Source: Tellurirhabdus rosea
Lineage (GTDB): Bacteria; Bacteroidota; Bacteroidia; Cytophagales; Spirosomataceae
Assembly (NCBI RefSeq): GCF_026278345.1
Contig: NZ_CP111085.1
Location: forward strand, 2,492,001 to 2,556,000
Direction: 5' to 3'
DNA: 64,000 bases
Below, in pieces: positions 12,464 to 51,345 of the stretch. The number at the start of each line of letters is the position of its first letter. Position 1 is the stretch's first letter. The position numbers were made by a program, and so were the translations under genes. Below the pieces are notes generated by a model. It searched no databases. It was not told the DNA's origin and was given only the letters and a program-made list of their open reading frames with translations.

Positions 12464-13522
12464 ATGAACCTGTTTCGCGCCTTCGGCTGTCTCAGCTTTT
12501 TTCTGCTCTTTTCTTCTGCCCCCCTCCTCGCCCAGTGGCAGCCGCAGCAGAGCGGCACCACGGCCAGCTTCCGCGCCGTCAGCGCCGCCAGCCGGAATGT
12601 AGTCTGGGTCGGCGGCACCCGGGGTACGTTTGTCCGCACGACCGACGGCGGCCAGACCTGGCAGGCCGGACGGGTACCGGGCGCCGATTCGCTGGATTTC
12701 CGGGATGTCTACGCCGTGAATGCCAATATGGCCTACCTGATGAGCGCCGGTCCCGCCGAACGCGGCCAGGCCCGGATTTACAAAACCACCGACGGCGGCC
12801 AGACCTGGAACCTAATGTACGAAACCCGGCAGAAAGGTGTCTTCTTCGACTCGATGGATTTTTACAACCGCCGCGAGGGGATGCTTTTCAGCGACCCCAT
12901 CGACGGCAAATGGGTCGTTCTGCGGACCACCAACGGCGGGCAGACCTGGAAGCCCATTCGCCCGGACCGGCTGCCGCCTGTCAAACCCGGCGAAGCAGCC
13001 TTTGCCGCCAGCGGCAGCAGTCTGATCTTTCACGGCATGGATTCGCAACATTCCCACACCCGTTTCGCCCGCATTGCCTCCGGCGGGGCCGATACCGCTC
13101 GGGTGTTTTACACACAAAACAACATTCTGCGGCGCTGGAAAGTCAGCAACACCCCCATTCCGGCCGGGCCGACAGCGGGTATTTTTGGCCTTTGGTTCGA
13201 CCGGATGGGTCGGCGGGGCATGGCCGTCGGCGGCGATTACAAGGCCGAGAAAGCCAGCAGTCAGAACGTGGCCGTCACGCGCAATGGCGGCCGGACCTGG
13301 GAGGCCGCCACGCCTACCAACCCCCCGGGCCTGAAAGAAGGCATCGGCAACATTCGCGGGCGGCGGCTCGTGCTGGTCGGCCCGTCGGGAAGCTGTTACA
13401 CCGACGACTGGGGGAAAACCTGGACCAAAATCGACGACTCGGCCTACCACGCCATTTCCTGCACTGGAGGGCAGTGCTGGGCGGTCGGCGCCGGGGGAAA
13501 GATTGGCTTTCTCCGTCAATAA
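12464..13522 (+). CDS. Secreted beta-propeller protein with BNR/Ycf48-like repeats
   Basis: This 352-residue protein has a signal peptide (MNLFRAFGCLSFFLLFSSAP...LLAQ) and repeated TTDGGQTW or TTNGGQTW motifs (Asp-box, BNR type) at about residues 60, 110 and 155. Later variants RNGGRTW and DDWGKTW complete a six- or seven-bladed propeller. Such proteins often bind ligands or partner proteins at the surface; no catalytic function is evident. ATG 12464 is preferred over the upstream TTG at 12443. It lies 31 nt upstream of a zinc-finger gene and may be cotranscribed with it. Confidence 0.8.
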   Translation: MNLFRAFGCLSFFLLFSSAPLLAQWQPQQSGTTASFRAVSAASRNVVWVGGTRGTFVRTTDGGQTWQAGRVPGADSLDFRDVYAVNANMAYLMSAGPAERGQARIYKTTDGGQTWNLMYETRQKGVFFDSMDFYNRREGMLFSDPIDGKWVVLRTTNGGQTWKPIRPDRLPPVKPGEAAFAASGSSLIFHGMDSQHSHTRFARIASGGADTARVFYTQNNILRRWKVSNTPIPAGPTAGIFGLWFDRMGRRGMAVGGDYKAEKASSQNVAVTRNGGRTWEAATPTNPPGLKEGIGNIRGRRLVLVGPSGSCYTDDWGKTWTKIDDSAYHAISCTGGQCWAVGAGGKIGFLRQ

Positions 13523-13553
13523 CGCCTAACTTGGTTTGCTAATTTCCCACACC

Positions 13554-13832
13554 ATGATCCGGATCAAGAACTGCGAACACCTGGCGGCCATCACGGAAGT
13601 CCGCCCGGCCAAAGCCTATCAATGCGAAGAGTGCCTGAAAACGGGCAGTGAATGGGTCCACCTGCGCACCTGCCAGACCTGCGGCGTCACGCTCTGCTGC
13701 GATTCCTCGCCCAACCGCCACGCAACCCGGCATTTCCACGAGACCGGCCACCCGGTCATCGCCTCCGCCGAACCGGGCGAACAATGGCTCTGGTGCTTCA
13801 TAGACGAGCAAGTCACACCCTTTGGGAGTTAA
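13554..13832 (+). CDS. UBP-type zinc-finger protein, 92 aa
   Basis: The whole protein is a ZnF-UBP domain. Likely metal ligands are Cys7, His9, Cys24, Cys27, Cys40, Cys43, Cys48 and His56/His60 in CEHL, CEEC, CQTCGVTLCC and HATRHFHETGH. In eukaryotes this fold binds the ubiquitin C-terminus; the bacterial role is unknown. The last coding bases and the stop codon are part of the left arm of fold-back element E3. Confidence 0.88.
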   Translation: MIRIKNCEHLAAITEVRPAKAYQCEECLKTGSEWVHLRTCQTCGVTLCCDSSPNRHATRHFHETGHPVIASAEPGEQWLWCFIDEQVTPFGS

Positions 13833-13928
13833 GAATTAAGAGTTATGAGTTAAAAATTGACGCAGCGAAGCTGACTGCGTGGCGGGCCGCTTTTAATTCA
13901 TAACTCTTAATTCTTAACTCCCAAAGGG
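13818..13928. repeat. Fold-back element E3, GAGTTAA/GAATTAA word family
   Basis: The left arm (13818-13855) and right arm (13891-13928) are 38 nt each with one mismatch. The left arm starts 12 nt inside the zinc-finger gene and includes its TAA (13830-13832). The 35-nt spacer contains ACGCAG, CGAAGC and CTGCGT and can form an inner hairpin. Confidence 0.95.
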
Positions 13929-13941
13929 GCAACTTTTTCCG

Positions 13942-13949
13942 TAATTTTG
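13942..13949 (+). promoter_or_regulatory. Probable -7 box of the uvrD/pcrA gene
   Basis: TAATTTTG matches TAnnTTTG, 39 nt before the ATG and just beyond the right arm of E3. No clear TTTG is seen 19-21 nt upstream. Confidence 0.5.
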
Positions 13950-13988
13950 ACTGTTATTCTCAGAAGAGAGTGTGCTAACGAGCTGTTG

Positions 13989-16259
13989 ATGACCAACTAT
14001 ATTTCCACCCTGAACGACCCGCAGCGGGAGGCCGTGCTGCACGGCAACGGGCCGTTGATGATTATTGCCGGAGCCGGCTCGGGGAAGACCCGCGTGCTGA
14101 CGTTCCGGATTGCCCACCTGATTCACCAGGGCGTCGATCCGTTCCGGATTCTGGCGCTGACGTTTACCAACAAGGCGGCGGGCGAGATGCGCCACCGGAT
14201 TGAGAGCGTGATCGGCAACGAAGCCCGCAACATCTGGATGGGCACGTTCCACTCGGTGTTTGCCAAAATTCTGCGCATCGAGGCGAAGTCTCTCGGCTAT
14301 ACGAGCAATTTTTCGATTTACGATACCGACGATTCGAAGTCGCTGCTGCGGAGCATCATCAAGGAATTCGGACTCGACGACAAGCTGTACAAGGCCAACG
14401 TGGTCTTCAACCGCATTTCGGGTGCCAAAAACCGCCTCGTCGGGCCGGACGATTACATCAGCAATCCGCTGATTCAGGCCGACGACGCGGCGGCGCGCAT
14501 CCCGGAGGTCGGGCGGATTTACAAAGCCTACGCACGGCGCTGCTTCGGGGCCAACGCGATGGACTTCGACGACCTGCTGTTCAACACCAACGTCCTGTTC
14601 CGCGACCACCTCGACATCCTGCACAAGTACCAGCACAAGTTTCAGTACGTGCTCGTGGACGAGTTTCAGGATACCAACGTTTCGCAGTACCTGATTACCC
14701 GCAAGCTGTCGGCGGTCCACCAGAATATCTGCGTCGTGGGCGACGATGCGCAGAGTATCTACGCCTTCCGCGGGGCCAACATCGAGAACATTCTGAATTT
14801 CGAAAAGGACTTTCCGGACGTCCGGACGATCAAGCTGGAGCAGAATTACCGCTCGACGAAGACCATCGTGGAAGCGGCCAACTCCATCATCGCCCGCAAC
14901 CGCGCCCAGCTGAAGAAGAACGTCTTCACGGACAACGAGGACGGTACGCTCATCGATGTCCTCAAGGCGGCGTCGGACAACGAGGAAGGCCGTCTGGTCG
15001 CCTCGGCCATTTTCGACCAGAAGGTCAACGAAGGGCTGAGTAACAACGATTTCGTGATTCTGTACCGGACCAACGCCCAGTCGCGGGCCTTTGAAGAAGC
15101 CCTGCGGAAGATGAGCATCAAGTACCGCATTGTGGGCGGCCTGTCGTTCTACCAGCGCAAGGAAATCAAGGACCTGCTGGCGTACCTCCGTTTTACGGTC
15201 AACCAGAACGACGAAGAGGCGTTCAAGCGCATCATCAACCTGCCCAAACGCGGCATCGGCGACACCACGGTGGCGAAAATTTCGGTCATTGCGGCCGAAA
15301 ACAGCGAACCGATCTGGGAAGTTGTGGCCGACATCAACAAGTTCGTGGCCGGCCGGGCGGCGGTGGCGATTGAAGGCTTTGCCGATCTGATCAAAAGCTA
15401 CCGGCTGCTGCTGGACAAAAAAGACGCCTACGAGGTGGCCGCGCATATCGCCAAAACCTCCGGGCTGCTGAAGGAACTGTACGACGACAAAACCGTCGAG
15501 GGGCTGGCCCGGTACGAGAACGTCCAGGAATTGCTGAACGCCATCAAGGAATTTGTCGATAACCCCGACAACGACGACAAGAGCCTCAGCGCCTTCCTCC
15601 AGGCCGTTTCGCTGCTGACCTCCGCCGACGAGAAGGAGGACGACGACGATAACGATAAGGTGACCCTGATGACCATCCACGCCGCCAAGGGGCTGGAGTT
15701 TCGGAACGTGTTCATCGTCGGGCTGGAAGAAGATTTGTTTCCCTCGCAGATGATGCTCGAAAGCCGGGCCGATCTGGAAGAAGAGCGGCGGCTGTTTTAC
15801 GTGGCCATCACCCGCGCCGAGAAAAAGCTGACGCTTTCGTATGCCGAATCGCGCTACCACTACGGCCGCCTGAAAACCTGCGAACCCAGCCGGTTCCTGC
15901 TCGAAGTGAACACCGACTACCTGAAAATGGCCAAACGCCCCCGCTCCGAAGCCGAGCCGAACGGGCGCTCCGAACGCGATACGCCTTCGGGCGGTTCGAT
16001 GGCCTTTGTCCGGAGCCTGGCCCAGAAAACGGCCCGCCAGCAGCCCCAGATGAACGTGGCCCACACGCCCTCGGCGGATTTTGCGCCCAGCGACACCGCG
16101 GCCCTGGCCGTCGGCATGAAGGTCGAGCACGCCAAATTCGGCTTCGGCACCGTCAAGGCGCTGGACATCAACGGCACCGAACGAAAAGCCGTCATTGCCT
16201 TCGACAAAGCCGGCGAAAAGACGCTGCTGCTGAGCTTTGCGAAATTGAGAATTGTATAA
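13989..16259 (+). CDS. UvrD/PcrA-type superfamily 1 DNA helicase
   Basis: This 756-residue ATP-dependent 3'-5' helicase is used in repair and in clearing DNA-bound proteins. The Walker A motif is AGAGSGKT (27-34), motif Ia is TFTNKAAGEM, Walker B is VDEFQDTN, motif III is GDDAQSIYAFRGA, motif V is TIHAAKGLEF and motif VI is RRLFYVAITRA. The C-terminal 50 residues (VGMKVEHAKFGFGTV...) form the Tudor-like domain that in PcrA contacts RNA polymerase. ATG 13989 gives the normal PcrA N-terminus; the open frame upstream runs into the E3 region. A fold-back element follows the stop codon. Confidence 0.95.
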   Translation: MTNYISTLNDPQREAVLHGNGPLMIIAGAGSGKTRVLTFRIAHLIHQGVDPFRILALTFTNKAAGEMRHRIESVIGNEARNIWMGTFHSVFAKILRIEAKSLGYTSNFSIYDTDDSKSLLRSIIKEFGLDDKLYKANVVFNRISGAKNRLVGPDDYISNPLIQADDAAARIPEVGRIYKAYARRCFGANAMDFDDLLFNTNVLFRDHLDILHKYQHKFQYVLVDEFQDTNVSQYLITRKLSAVHQNICVVGDDAQSIYAFRGANIENILNFEKDFPDVRTIKLEQNYRSTKTIVEAANSIIARNRAQLKKNVFTDNEDGTLIDVLKAASDNEEGRLVASAIFDQKVNEGLSNNDFVILYRTNAQSRAFEEALRKMSIKYRIVGGLSFYQRKEIKDLLAYLRFTVNQNDEEAFKRIINLPKRGIGDTTVAKISVIAAENSEPIWEVVADINKFVAGRAAVAIEGFADLIKSYRLLLDKKDAYEVAAHIAKTSGLLKELYDDKTVEGLARYENVQELLNAIKEFVDNPDNDDKSLSAFLQAVSLLTSADEKEDDDDNDKVTLMTIHAAKGLEFRNVFIVGLEEDLFPSQMMLESRADLEEERRLFYVAITRAEKKLTLSYAESRYHYGRLKTCEPSRFLLEVNTDYLKMAKRPRSEAEPNGRSERDTPSGGSMAFVRSLAQKTARQQPQMNVAHTPSADFAPSDTAALAVGMKVEHAKFGFGTVKALDINGTERKAVIAFDKAGEKTLLLSFAKLRIV

Positions 16260-22720: not shown

Positions 22721-23542
22721 ATGATGTACATCTGCCTCCTGACAGGATGCGCCAACGGGATTGGACTGTATCTGACGGATGTGCTCCTGCGGAAAGGCCA
22801 TTGCGTGGTGGCCACCGATATTGATGAAACCCAGCTCCGCCGGGCGGCGGCCGAGCGCGGCTGGCCTCCGGACCGGCACCGCCTGCTGAAACTCGATGTG
22901 ACCTGTGCCTCCGACTGGCAGCAGGCGCTCGACGAAGTGATGAGTTCGTGGGGGCGCCTTGATATTGGAATGAACATCGCGGGCGTCATCCGCCCCGGCT
23001 ACGTGGCCAAATTTCCGCCGGAAGACATTGATTTCATGGTAGACATCAACCTGAAAGGGGTCATGCTCGGGACCCGGCTGATGGCCGAAGCCATGATTCC
23101 GCAGCGCTTCGGCCAGATTGTCAACATCGCCTCGCTGGCCGGCGTGGCCCCGATCGAAGGGCTGGCGGTTTATTCGGCCACCAAGGCCGCCGTCCGGTTT
23201 TTCTCGCTGGCGGCAGCATCGGAGCTGAACCGCCACCGGGTGGGCGTGTCCGTCGTCTGTTCGGACGTGGTCGATACCAACATGTTCCGGCAGCAGCTCC
23301 CGCACGAAGCGGCGGCGCTGACGTTTTCGGGCGACCGGATTTTGACCGTGGAAGAAGTGTGCCAGACGATTCTCCGGGAGGCGCTGGAACGAAAAAGGGC
23401 CGAGATTCTGATTCCGCCGGGAAGAGGCTGGCTGGCGAAACTGGGCAATTTGTTTCCGGAAACGGCCCGGCACCTGACCGAACGGCTCAGGAAGCGGGGA
23501 AACGAGAAGCGAATGTCTTTGAACCGGGATTCGGGGGATTAA
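22721..23542 (+). CDS. Short-chain dehydrogenase/reductase
   Basis: This 273-residue Rossmann enzyme has TGCANGIG (8-15), the NNAG-equivalent NIAG (85-88), Ser138 and the YSATK motif with Tyr151 and Lys155. The C-terminal RGWLAKLGNLFPETARHL tail is like SDRs acting on lipid or steroid-like substrates, but the substrate is not readable. ATG 22721 or 22724 is the likely start; the earlier TTG is not supported. Its last codons and stop lie in the left arm of fold-back element E6. Confidence 0.88.
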   Translation: MMYICLLTGCANGIGLYLTDVLLRKGHCVVATDIDETQLRRAAAERGWPPDRHRLLKLDVTCASDWQQALDEVMSSWGRLDIGMNIAGVIRPGYVAKFPPEDIDFMVDINLKGVMLGTRLMAEAMIPQRFGQIVNIASLAGVAPIEGLAVYSATKAAVRFFSLAAASELNRHRVGVSVVCSDVVDTNMFRQQLPHEAAALTFSGDRILTVEEVCQTILREALERKRAEILIPPGRGWLAKLGNLFPETARHLTERLRKRGNEKRMSLNRDSGD

Positions 23543-23609
23543 CGGATTTACCAGGATGCGTCGCCGTTTTGGAATCACAGTAAATCCATTAATCCGTGTA
23601 ATCCCGGTC
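23522..23609. repeat. Fold-back element E6, GGATTAA word family
   Basis: The left arm (23522-23551) includes the last seven codons of the SDR gene region with its TAA. The right arm (23580-23609) is an imperfect inverted copy reading, on the minus strand, GACCGGGATTACACGGATTA. Words match E0 and E12. Confidence 0.85.
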
Positions 23610-23615
23610 TAAAAG

Positions 23616-44200: not shown

Positions 44201-45583
44201 ATGCGCCATTCACACCTGATTTGCTTTCTCTTCCTCTTTTTTTCGCCTTTGCTGAAAGCCCAGCCGCTGCCCGGCCTGTCGTCGAGCAATTACGGCGGGC
44301 TGTACCGCGTCCTCCAGAATCCATCCGCGGCGGCCGGTTCGCGGTACCGGTACCACCTCATTCCGGCGGCGGGTATCTCGACCGTTAATCCGACCCTGTT
44401 TCGGTATTTCAACAGCAACGACTATTTCGGCCAGTTGCGTCTTCCGTACAGCGACCAGCTGGCGCGGGACCTGCGCGGCATCGGTTCGGTGACGAATGCG
44501 CCCGCCACCAACGGCTGGTCCGAGCTGATCGGGCCGTCGGTGCTGGTCAGTCTAGGGCGGGCCCACGCCATCGCGGTGCATACCCGCATCCGGAGCTACC
44601 TGACGGGCTCCTCCCTGCCCGAGCCGCTGACCAACGCCTACCGACGCGGCCTTTACAGCCGGGTGCTCCAACCGGCGGAAGGGTCGTTTGATTTTAATCT
44701 GGCGAATGAGAGTTATGCCGAGGCAGGCCTGACCTACGGGTTGCAGGTCTTCAATGGGGAACTGCACCGGCTGCGCATCGGCGGAACCCTTCGCCGGATT
44801 GTGGCGGCCCAGCGACGGACGCTGACGGCCGCGGGACAGTACGCCATCCAAACCAATGCGGGCACGAACGAAAAGACGCTTTCGATCCAGAATGCAGCGT
44901 TTATGAGCCAGTCCTCGGTGCCGCGACAGGGCTTCCGCCTGTCGGGCGACGACCTCGGTACGGGCTGGGCCTACGACCTGGGGGCGACTTATGAAATCGG
45001 CTACCAGACCTCGGACCGTCGGAACCGCTCGGCCGCCGGGCTGGACGATCTGCGTCCGGCTTACATCCTGCGTCTGTCGGCGGCGCTGCTCAACAATGGC
45101 CAGATTGATTACCGGTCCGGCACGTCCCAGAGCGGGAGTTTCTCACAGGATTTCAATCAGGACGAATTGGACCGCTTCGGAAACGCGCCGCTGGAGTATC
45201 TGGCCTCGCGCAGCAACAGCACCGGCCAGTATCTCGCTGAGACCGTGAATCTGCCGCGCACGATGCATCTGGAAGCCGACCTGCGGCTTTCCCCGGCGTT
45301 TTACGTCAACGCCCTGCGGGTGCAGAACCTTGGCGGGCGCGAGGTTTACCCCAGCCAGTTGATTATCACCCCGCGTTTTGAAGACGAAGATTCGGAAATA
45401 GCCCTGCCCGTTTCCTTTATCGGGCCGGACAACCGGGTAGCCGTGGGCCTCTCCGCCCGGCTCGGACCGATTGCCGTGGGCATGAGCGATCTCAATCACT
45501 TCTTCAACCGCAGCGCCGAAAACCGCAGCACCGTTTTCTGGCTCGGCATTTCGGCCTGGAAACTACAATCAGTTAAAAATTAA
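44201..45583 (+). CDS. Outer-membrane beta-barrel protein, DUF5723-like
   Basis: This 460-residue protein has a signal peptide (MRHSHLICFLFLFFSPLLKAQ), an SSNYGGLYRVLQNPSAAAGS motif near the N-terminus, as in Bacteroidota OM proteins of the PorV/DUF5723 type, and alternating amphipathic beta strands throughout, ending in FWLGISAWKLQSVKN. The last codons GTTAAAAAT TAA belong to the left arm of fold-back element E11. It starts 12 nt after recQ and may be cotranscribed. Function unknown. Confidence 0.75.
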   Translation: MRHSHLICFLFLFFSPLLKAQPLPGLSSSNYGGLYRVLQNPSAAAGSRYRYHLIPAAGISTVNPTLFRYFNSNDYFGQLRLPYSDQLARDLRGIGSVTNAPATNGWSELIGPSVLVSLGRAHAIAVHTRIRSYLTGSSLPEPLTNAYRRGLYSRVLQPAEGSFDFNLANESYAEAGLTYGLQVFNGELHRLRIGGTLRRIVAAQRRTLTAAGQYAIQTNAGTNEKTLSIQNAAFMSQSSVPRQGFRLSGDDLGTGWAYDLGATYEIGYQTSDRRNRSAAGLDDLRPAYILRLSAALLNNGQIDYRSGTSQSGSFSQDFNQDELDRFGNAPLEYLASRSNSTGQYLAETVNLPRTMHLEADLRLSPAFYVNALRVQNLGGREVYPSQLIITPRFEDEDSEIALPVSFIGPDNRVAVGLSARLGPIAVGMSDLNHFFNRSAENRSTVFWLGISAWKLQSVKN

Positions 45584-45669
45584 GAGTTAAGAGTTAAAAG
45601 TAGGCTCCGCTTAGTCAGGTTATGACCAAGCGGAGCCTACTTTTAACTCTTAACTCTTAATTCTTAACT
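45571..45669. repeat. Fold-back element E11 spanning both stop codons
   Basis: Left arm 45571-45617 and right arm 45623-45669 are 47 nt with two mismatches around a 5-nt loop. The arms contain AGTTAAxAATTAAGAGTTAA and end in AGGCTCCGCTT. The TAA of the outer-membrane gene (45581-45583) and the TAA of tpiA (45657-45659) each lie in one arm, so the hairpin covers the whole space between convergent genes. Confidence 0.97.
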
Positions 45670-49935: not shown

Positions 49936-51195
49936 ATGGAAAGTTTAACCTCACTTACGGCTACCCAGCGGGCTATCCAACTCGAAGAGCAATACGGTGC
50001 CCACAACTACCATCCGATTCCTGTGGTGCTCGAACGCGGGCAGGGCATTTTTGTCTGGGATGTGGAAGGACGGCAATATTACGACTTTTTATCGGCCTAC
50101 AGTGCCGTCAGCCAGGGCCACTGCCATCCGCGCATCGTGGACGCCATGATCCGGCAGGCCCAGCGCCTGACGCTCACCTCCCGGGCCTTTCATACCGATA
50201 TTCTGGGCCAGTGCGAAAAATACCTCTGTGAGTACTTCGGCTTCGACAAGGTGCTGATGATGAACTCCGGCGCAGAAGGCGGCGAAACGGCCCTGAAACT
50301 AACGCGCAAATGGGCTTACAAGGTGAAAGGCATTGCGCAGGACGCGGCTAAGACCGTCTACGCCACTGGCAACTTCTGGGGCCGGACGATGGCCGCCATC
50401 TCCTCCTCGACCGATCCCTCCTCAACCAGCGACTACGGTCCGCTGCTGCCGGGCTATCAGCTGGTGCCTTACAATGACCTTTCCGCGCTGGAAGAAGCGT
50501 TCAAAGCCGATCCGGACATTGCCGGGTTTATGGTGGAGCCCATCCAGGGCGAAGCGGGCGTAGTCGTGCCGGATGCGGGCTACCTCCGCGGCGTTCGGGA
50601 GCTTTGTACCCGGTACAACGTGCTGTTCATTGCCGACGAGGTGCAGACGGGCATCGGCCGGACGGGCCGCCGGCTGGCCTGTGACCACGAGGCCGTCAAG
50701 CCGGACATTCTGGTCCTCGGCAAAGCGCTTTCGGGCGGTACGATGCCGGTGTCGGCCGTGCTGGCCAGCGACGAAATCATGCTTACTATCCGCCCCGGCG
50801 AACACGGCTCGACCTACGGCGGCAATCCGCTGGCCTGCGCCGTCACGATGGCGGCCCTGCAGGTGGTGGAAGACGAGGGACTGGCCGAAAACGCCGAAGT
50901 CATGGGCCAACTTTTCCGCGACCGCATGAACGCCCTGATCGACAAAACCCCTCTGGTAAAGCTGGTGCGCGGCAAAGGTCTGCTGAACGCCATCGTGATC
51001 GAAAACCTGCCGCAGTACGGCTCCGAAACCGCCTGGGCACTGTGCATGCAGCTGAAAGAGGCCGGCCTGCTCTGCAAACCCACGCATGGCGACAAAATCC
51101 GCTTCGCCCCGCCGCTGGTGATTACGGAAGAACAGATGCACCAGGCATGCGACATTATCGAGAAAACGGTTCTGAACCTGAATTCAGCCGATTAA
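49936..51195 (+). CDS. rocD: Ornithine aminotransferase
   Basis: This 419-residue class III PLP aminotransferase turns ornithine plus 2-oxoglutarate into glutamate semialdehyde plus glutamate, linking arginine and proline metabolism. The N-terminus [18 protein letters not shown] is diagnostic for ornithine--oxo-acid transaminase. The PLP lysine is Lys263 in [10 protein letters not shown], with [12 protein letters not shown] (about 233-244). No arginine catabolism genes are adjacent. The 3' end overlaps the left arm of fold-back element E12. Confidence 0.95.
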
Positions 51196-51330
51196 AGGAT
51201 TCACTATGAATGCTTCGCAGCCTTAGAACTTCTTAGGTGGAGCCTAAATTTAAGGAGTCAGTGATTGACCGCAGGCTGATTCAGGCGAAGCATCACAGTT
51301 AATCCATAAATCAGCGAAATCCAGGTTCAG
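51173..51330. repeat. Fold-back element E12, GGATT words with GCTTCGC core
   Basis: The left arm (51173-51218) begins inside the rocD coding end (CTGAACCTGAATT) and ends in GCTTCGC. The right arm (51285-51330) is an imperfect inverted counterpart that includes the same CTGAACCTG on the opposite strand. The stop codon (51193-51195) is in the left arm. Confidence 0.75.
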
Positions 51331-51345
51331 ACATTCCATTCGTCC

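Follow-up and report, generated by a model that had tools for sequence, protein, structure and literature searches.

It is already known that template switching can create and maintain hairpins, leaving reverse-complement stems, mirrored multi-base changes and inverted loops (Monttinen and Loytynoja 2022, PMC8794818), and homogenisation of the arms together with inversion of the spacer has been described at inverted repeats (Abraham and Hazkani-Covo 2021, PMC8604942); this combination is the signature of template switching by DNA polymerase at such repeats (PMC8794818, PMC8604942). The palindromes described here share the hallmarks of both systems, but the former concerns microRNA and rRNA genes and the latter short repeats inside yeast genes, whereas here they are found at bacterial 3′-end palindromes, which also capture coding ends. 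The same two hallmarks are known for quasipalindrome mutations in E. coli, studied in mutation assays (PMC7202029). Compared with PMC8604942 and PMC7202029, the arms considered here are 30–45 nt long and lie at many gene ends, and loop inversion is frequent.

Other systems resemble these elements in position or in composition. REP elements associated with RAYT proteins are also small palindromes outside genes, and Y1 transposases are present in G000 and in three genomes of a neighbouring genus (G136, G139 and G142, about 92.5% identical, 250–267 kb aligned; hereafter the trio). However, the repeats at several Y1 transposase loci are of the GTCGCGTTAGCGAC type and not the word palindromes, whose arm sequence varies from copy to copy. 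RAYT-driven REP elements were rejected as a family assignment, since the Y1 loci examined had other repeats or none, and the word classes differ per locus. At L332 and L334, GTCGCGTTAGCGAC repeats lie close to Y1-type (RAYT-like) transposase genes; the best-scoring of these copies in the window genome is interrupted by two stops within its match. TAACTGA heptamers form direct-repeat arrays in Beggiatoaceae, Cyanobacteria and five Bacteroidetes (PMC4679880); these are likewise 7-nt words between genes in bacteria, but most of them are direct repeats ahead of start codons, whereas our elements have mirrored arms at 3′ ends. Intrinsic terminators also form hairpins at the 3′ ends of genes and, like the elements here, are enriched between convergent genes, but the arms here exceed the length needed and often have no adjacent U run. 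These word palindromes were not found described in the literature that we searched.

The element studied, E3, lies in a window of 64,000 nt of the Tellurirhabdus rosea genome, this being the whole stretch of DNA analysed, between a zf-UBP zinc-finger gene and uvrD. Its parts and neighbours are the following:

12464–13522, plus strand: YCF48-like gene, which lies directly before uvrD in G141
13554–13832, plus strand: zf-UBP zinc-finger gene of 92 aa (PF02148, E = 1.5e-11), with its last 15 nt, CCC TTT GGG AGT TAA, in the left arm
13818–13855, plus strand: left (gene-side) arm of E3
13818–13828, plus strand: CCCTTTGGGAG, locus-specific outer stem within the coding sequence
13856–13890, no strand: loop of E3, 35 nt, with an inner GCAGCGAAGCTGACTGC stem in the RNA fold
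13891–13928, minus strand: right (distal) arm of E3, which complements the left arm at 37 of 38 positions
13918–13928, minus strand: CTCCCAAAGGG, inverted copy of the zf-UBP gene tail, which ends the right arm
13929–13988, plus strand: uvrD upstream region GCAACTTTTTcCGTAATTTTGAcTGTTAT, homologous to that of the neighbouring genus and directly abutted by the distal arm

The preliminary description had claimed that the far arm is an inverted copy of the 3′ end of the gene over 37 of 38 nt, and that the left arm begins 12 nt inside the zinc-finger gene. Both points were confirmed: the arms are 38 nt each, with 37 positions paired around the 35-nt loop, and the left arm takes in 15 nt of the gene, namely its last 12 coding bases (CCC TTT GGG AGT) and the stop codon. 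The RNA fold of positions 13810–13945 reached −69.3 kcal/mol (z = −12.5 against shuffles, single strand), GGGGCAACTTTTT comes after the stem, and the position of E3 fits an intrinsic terminator. Since 90% of the elements adjoining a 3′ end begin between −15 and +25 nt from the stop codon, a function as transcription terminator or mRNA 3′-end stem is a likely setting, and a candidate role, for the hairpin of E3. Rfam 15, searched across the window at the gathering score, gave a tRNA as sole match, and E3 itself had no match there.

To establish which arm is older, the 3′ ends of orthologues were compared, the nearest of them having about 66–75% protein identity to the window gene. The protein ends in ..QVTPFGS in the window genome, in ..QQIMPY in G001, of the same genus, in ..QIMPY plus a short tail in the three Larkinella-like genomes of the trio, and in ..QITPYTI in Larkinella soli. 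The CCC-TTT (Pro-Phe) of the window aligns with the Pro-Tyr codons of the relatives; it therefore represents the original end of the gene, in which Tyr was changed to Phe, and the coding arm of E3 is the older copy. The unambiguously older part is 6 nt long (CCCTTT), as the GGGAG which follows could belong to the element; the diagnostic bases are thus 6 if counted strictly, and 11 if GGGAG is included.

On the distal side, the comparison was with G141, from the genus nearest by uvrD (81% over uvrD), in which the YCF48-like gene is followed by uvrD with CCTTCCGCAACTTTTTT / CTCCTTCCGCAACTTTTTTCGTAATTTTGA in between, and the window reads CCCAAAGGGGCAACTTTTT / CTCCCAAAGGGGCAACTTTTTCCGTAATTTTGA at the corresponding site. 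The far AAAGGG of E3 adjoins GCAACTTTTT, while the relative shows CC followed directly by GCAAC before uvrD. AAAGGG is missing at the YCF48-uvrD gap of G141, and is therefore no part of the old uvrD flank, so that the distal bases are new relative to that flank. The check on orthologues proposed in the preliminary description thus came out in its favour on both sides. The zf-UBP gene itself was moved between the YCF48-like gene and uvrD in the window lineage. In the window (12464–16259) it stands between these two genes, which are neighbours to each other in G141; in several Spirosoma genomes, as well as in G001 and L. soli, an egtB-like gene appears to follow zf-UBP, as read from sequence.

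These observations bear on the possibility that a ready-made palindromic element was inserted beside the stop codon, with both arms including GGGAG, and that its outermost 6 nt match the gene by chance. In the 5.58-Mb genome, CCCTTTGGGAG is found in three copies, namely the two arms of E3 and a 424-codon ORF at 430155. Since it occurs elsewhere only once, inside a long ORF, it is not the stock end sequence of a repeated element. Moreover, a chance match of 6 nt on the same fixed axis has a probability of about 2e-4 per element, or about 0.03 over the approximately 119 elements scanned, and an extension of 11 nt one of about 2e-7. We consider such an insertion unlikely at E3, even though whole palindromes have been inserted cleanly at gene ends in relatives and two further elements of the window speak for it:

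23518–23613, no strand: palindrome taken as E6, 79% paired, sharing 22 coding bases with the gene 22721–23542
45571–45669, no strand: E12, from whose words two convergent genes get their stops, with a 13-nt overlap on each side

E6 and E12 had been presented as showing the same mirroring of coding bases before the stop codon. For E12 the description is right, including the 13-nt overlap, but the cause is different. The 22 coding bases shared by E6, which we assumed to be the palindrome at 23518–23613 and for which members of the short-chain dehydrogenase family overwhelmed the search for orthologues, match the consensus of a multicopy TCTGAACCGGGATT...GGATTAA element; the palindrome at 51171–51331 also starts with a TCTGAACCGGGATT-type sequence. 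At E12 the gene end consists of the words AGTTAAAAATTAA. Among the orthologues of this gene, some have their ends at other places and some finish in comparable words (AAG AAT TAA), and most run directly into word palindromes of their own. The genes at these palindromes run into an element and use its stop codon, and do not speak for the copying of gene tails; the coding bases of E6 and E12 fit a ready-made element that was inserted and from which the stop codon was borrowed. As these bases are element sequence, E6 and E12 were rejected as further examples of the E3 type.

The same caution comes from a survey of 860 kb around the window, with 554 gene ends. It contained 120 inverted repeats with arms of at least 18 nt (119 intergenic), and the density of those with arms of at least 20 nt was 2.95 per kb of gap between convergent genes, 0.8 between co-directional and 0.18 between divergent ones. 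The arms belong to different word classes (GAATGACT, TTAAGAGT, GTTTAGA, GTCGTAA, CGCAGATTT and others). At least 12 coding nt were exactly mirrored downstream at 6 gene ends, against 0.6 in permuted pairings; E3 is among these 6, and several of the other 5 are element sequence. Symmetry extended at all past the word boundary in 12 of 112 elements of the window genome. Most elements thus stop at the word boundary, which makes E3 unusual, favours ready-made insertion and leaves outward mirroring of the unique flank unsupported as a general property. The rarity of outward extension past the words counts against template switching at E3, and for the class as a whole fold-back copying is not needed to explain every element.

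Evidence for copying between arms came from the trio, which carries the same word class as the window genome in quantity. In 90 comparisons of homologous palindromes we counted 66 mirrored compensatory changes, where about 5 would be expected if the two sides were independent, and the count fell to 1–4 when the register was shifted by 1–4 nt. Mirrored changes beyond chance, a hallmark of template switching, are therefore present in the trio, and so is the second hallmark: loops were reverse-complemented at 5 loci (8 pairwise comparisons), against 10 comparisons in which the orientation was the same and the arms measured at least 15 nt. In P86257, compared with R, the word order was altered in both arms around an identical loop. 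Arm-to-arm copying is thus independently evident in the trio. One-sided changes on the mRNA strand comprised 22 G-U and 31 A-C, and the lack of a G-U preference argues against RNA pairing as the driver. This concerns also the possibility that the outer stem of E3 is an intrinsic terminator stem, built base by base by selection, into whose loop a word element was put later. Terminator-like stems beginning inside the coding sequence are common here, GGGGCAACTTTTT follows the stem of E3, and some gene-end stems have an element inside their loop, e.g., P25065; nevertheless, selection for RNA pairing alone would not be expected to give one-sided changes without G-U preference, multi-base mirrored changes and inverted loops, and this origin seems to us decidedly improbable.

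The inverted loops, on the other hand, could also stem from recombination between the arms, by gene conversion from arm to arm or by inversion, instead of polymerase template switching. Arms of 31–42 nt and the 5 loci with inverted loops would agree with it, but RecA pairing has its lower limit at about such lengths, and a new inverted copy beside a single-copy coding end needs synthesis and not exchange, so that we hold this explanation to be very unlikely.

Some further palindromes were observed in the same genomes and in Spirosoma. In G139 (C1, about 32291) a convergent-gene gap holds a word palindrome unlike that in the sisters G136 and G142, and the stop codon of the upstream gene is TAA, TGA and TAG across the three species. 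Other palindromes (P88796, Q64972 and Q153071 in G136, G139 and G142) are MITE-like, with CCCCTAAATCCCCTAAAGGGGACTT flanked by ends of the TAGGACTTACG type; they occur in some sisters and are missing from others, and their loops are found in either orientation. In the Spirosoma pair G187/G188 there was no excess of mirrored coding ends, which indicates that the effect is not universal, and we observed clean insertions of another palindrome class. Some Spirosoma palindromes of 70–110 nt, which have CGTGCCACGGTT at the apex and arms specific to each locus, occupy sites that are empty in the 93%-identical sister (L202–L221 of G188 against L182–L201 of G187).

The clearest parallel to E3 is a locus of G139 (C1:280527), where the perfect reverse complement of the coding end TCCCGGTTTTGCTAAAAAAGAACC (..IPVLLKKNPVSG) lies 27 nt further on. 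The inverted copy of this conserved coding end (IPVLL..) is perfect over 24 nt in G139 and over 22 nt in G136, while the same coding end stands without it in G142, G138 and G140 (..IPVLLKKNPVSG, ..IPVLLEKKKG and ..IPVLLQNPVSG, each before the stop codon). The head-on neighbour gene has the same mirroring over 26–30 nt; as the tails are mirrored copies, both convergent genes of G139 end in NPVSGRRP (second reading frame read by hand; L252:527–600, from G139:C1:280527 on). An arm that is the reverse complement of an older neighbouring sequence was found, therefore, both at E3 and at this G136/G139 locus. Close relatives show the same kind of event at their orthologous sites, with mirrored arm changes, inverted loops and a new inverted copy of a coding end that is conserved.

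On these grounds we suggest that the distal arm of E3 is, with fair probability, the product of inverted-repeat template switching (quasipalindrome correction) at the hairpin of the gene 3′ end, and we infer that the copy in E3 itself arose by such switching in one step. E3 belongs to a multi-word family of 3′-end hairpin elements, and its distal arm would once have been synthesised anew with the gene-side arm as template. While the DNA was being replicated, the nascent strand would fold back, or the polymerase would switch strand, at the inverted repeat; the gene-side arm would be copied through the words and 6–11 nt further, into the last codons of the gene, and the polymerase would then return to the original template just short of the uvrD promoter region. 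The earlier proposal of fold-back synthesis or gene conversion, in place of the insertion of a ready-made element, accordingly holds in part: the older coding side of E3 and the arm copying in the trio speak for it, but E6 and E12 are derived from the element, the class stops at the word boundary, and no more than 6–11 nt of E3 are diagnostic, which is a chief reason for doubt.

The mutational mechanism is already known; its apparent intensity at these 3′-end palindromes and the occasional capture of gene tails were not found described in the literature searched. Perfect hairpin arms in spite of sequence change are usually explained by selection for RNA pairing. Among species that differ by a few percent, the elements provide numerous natural cases of joint arm changes, flipped loops and mirrored conserved coding ends without G-U preference, which makes the template-switch account directly testable and shows a route for template switching to edit protein ends and stop codons. 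A wider reading, which we advance only tentatively, is that the 3′-end palindromes of these Cytophagales are self-templating: frequent template switching may keep the arms identical and flip the loops, so that each site would evolve its own word order, and copying that now and again continues into the gene may place its final codons on the opposite side, or on a convergent neighbour. If true, they would represent a natural and quantifiable system of quasipalindrome mutagenesis that reshapes protein C-termini.
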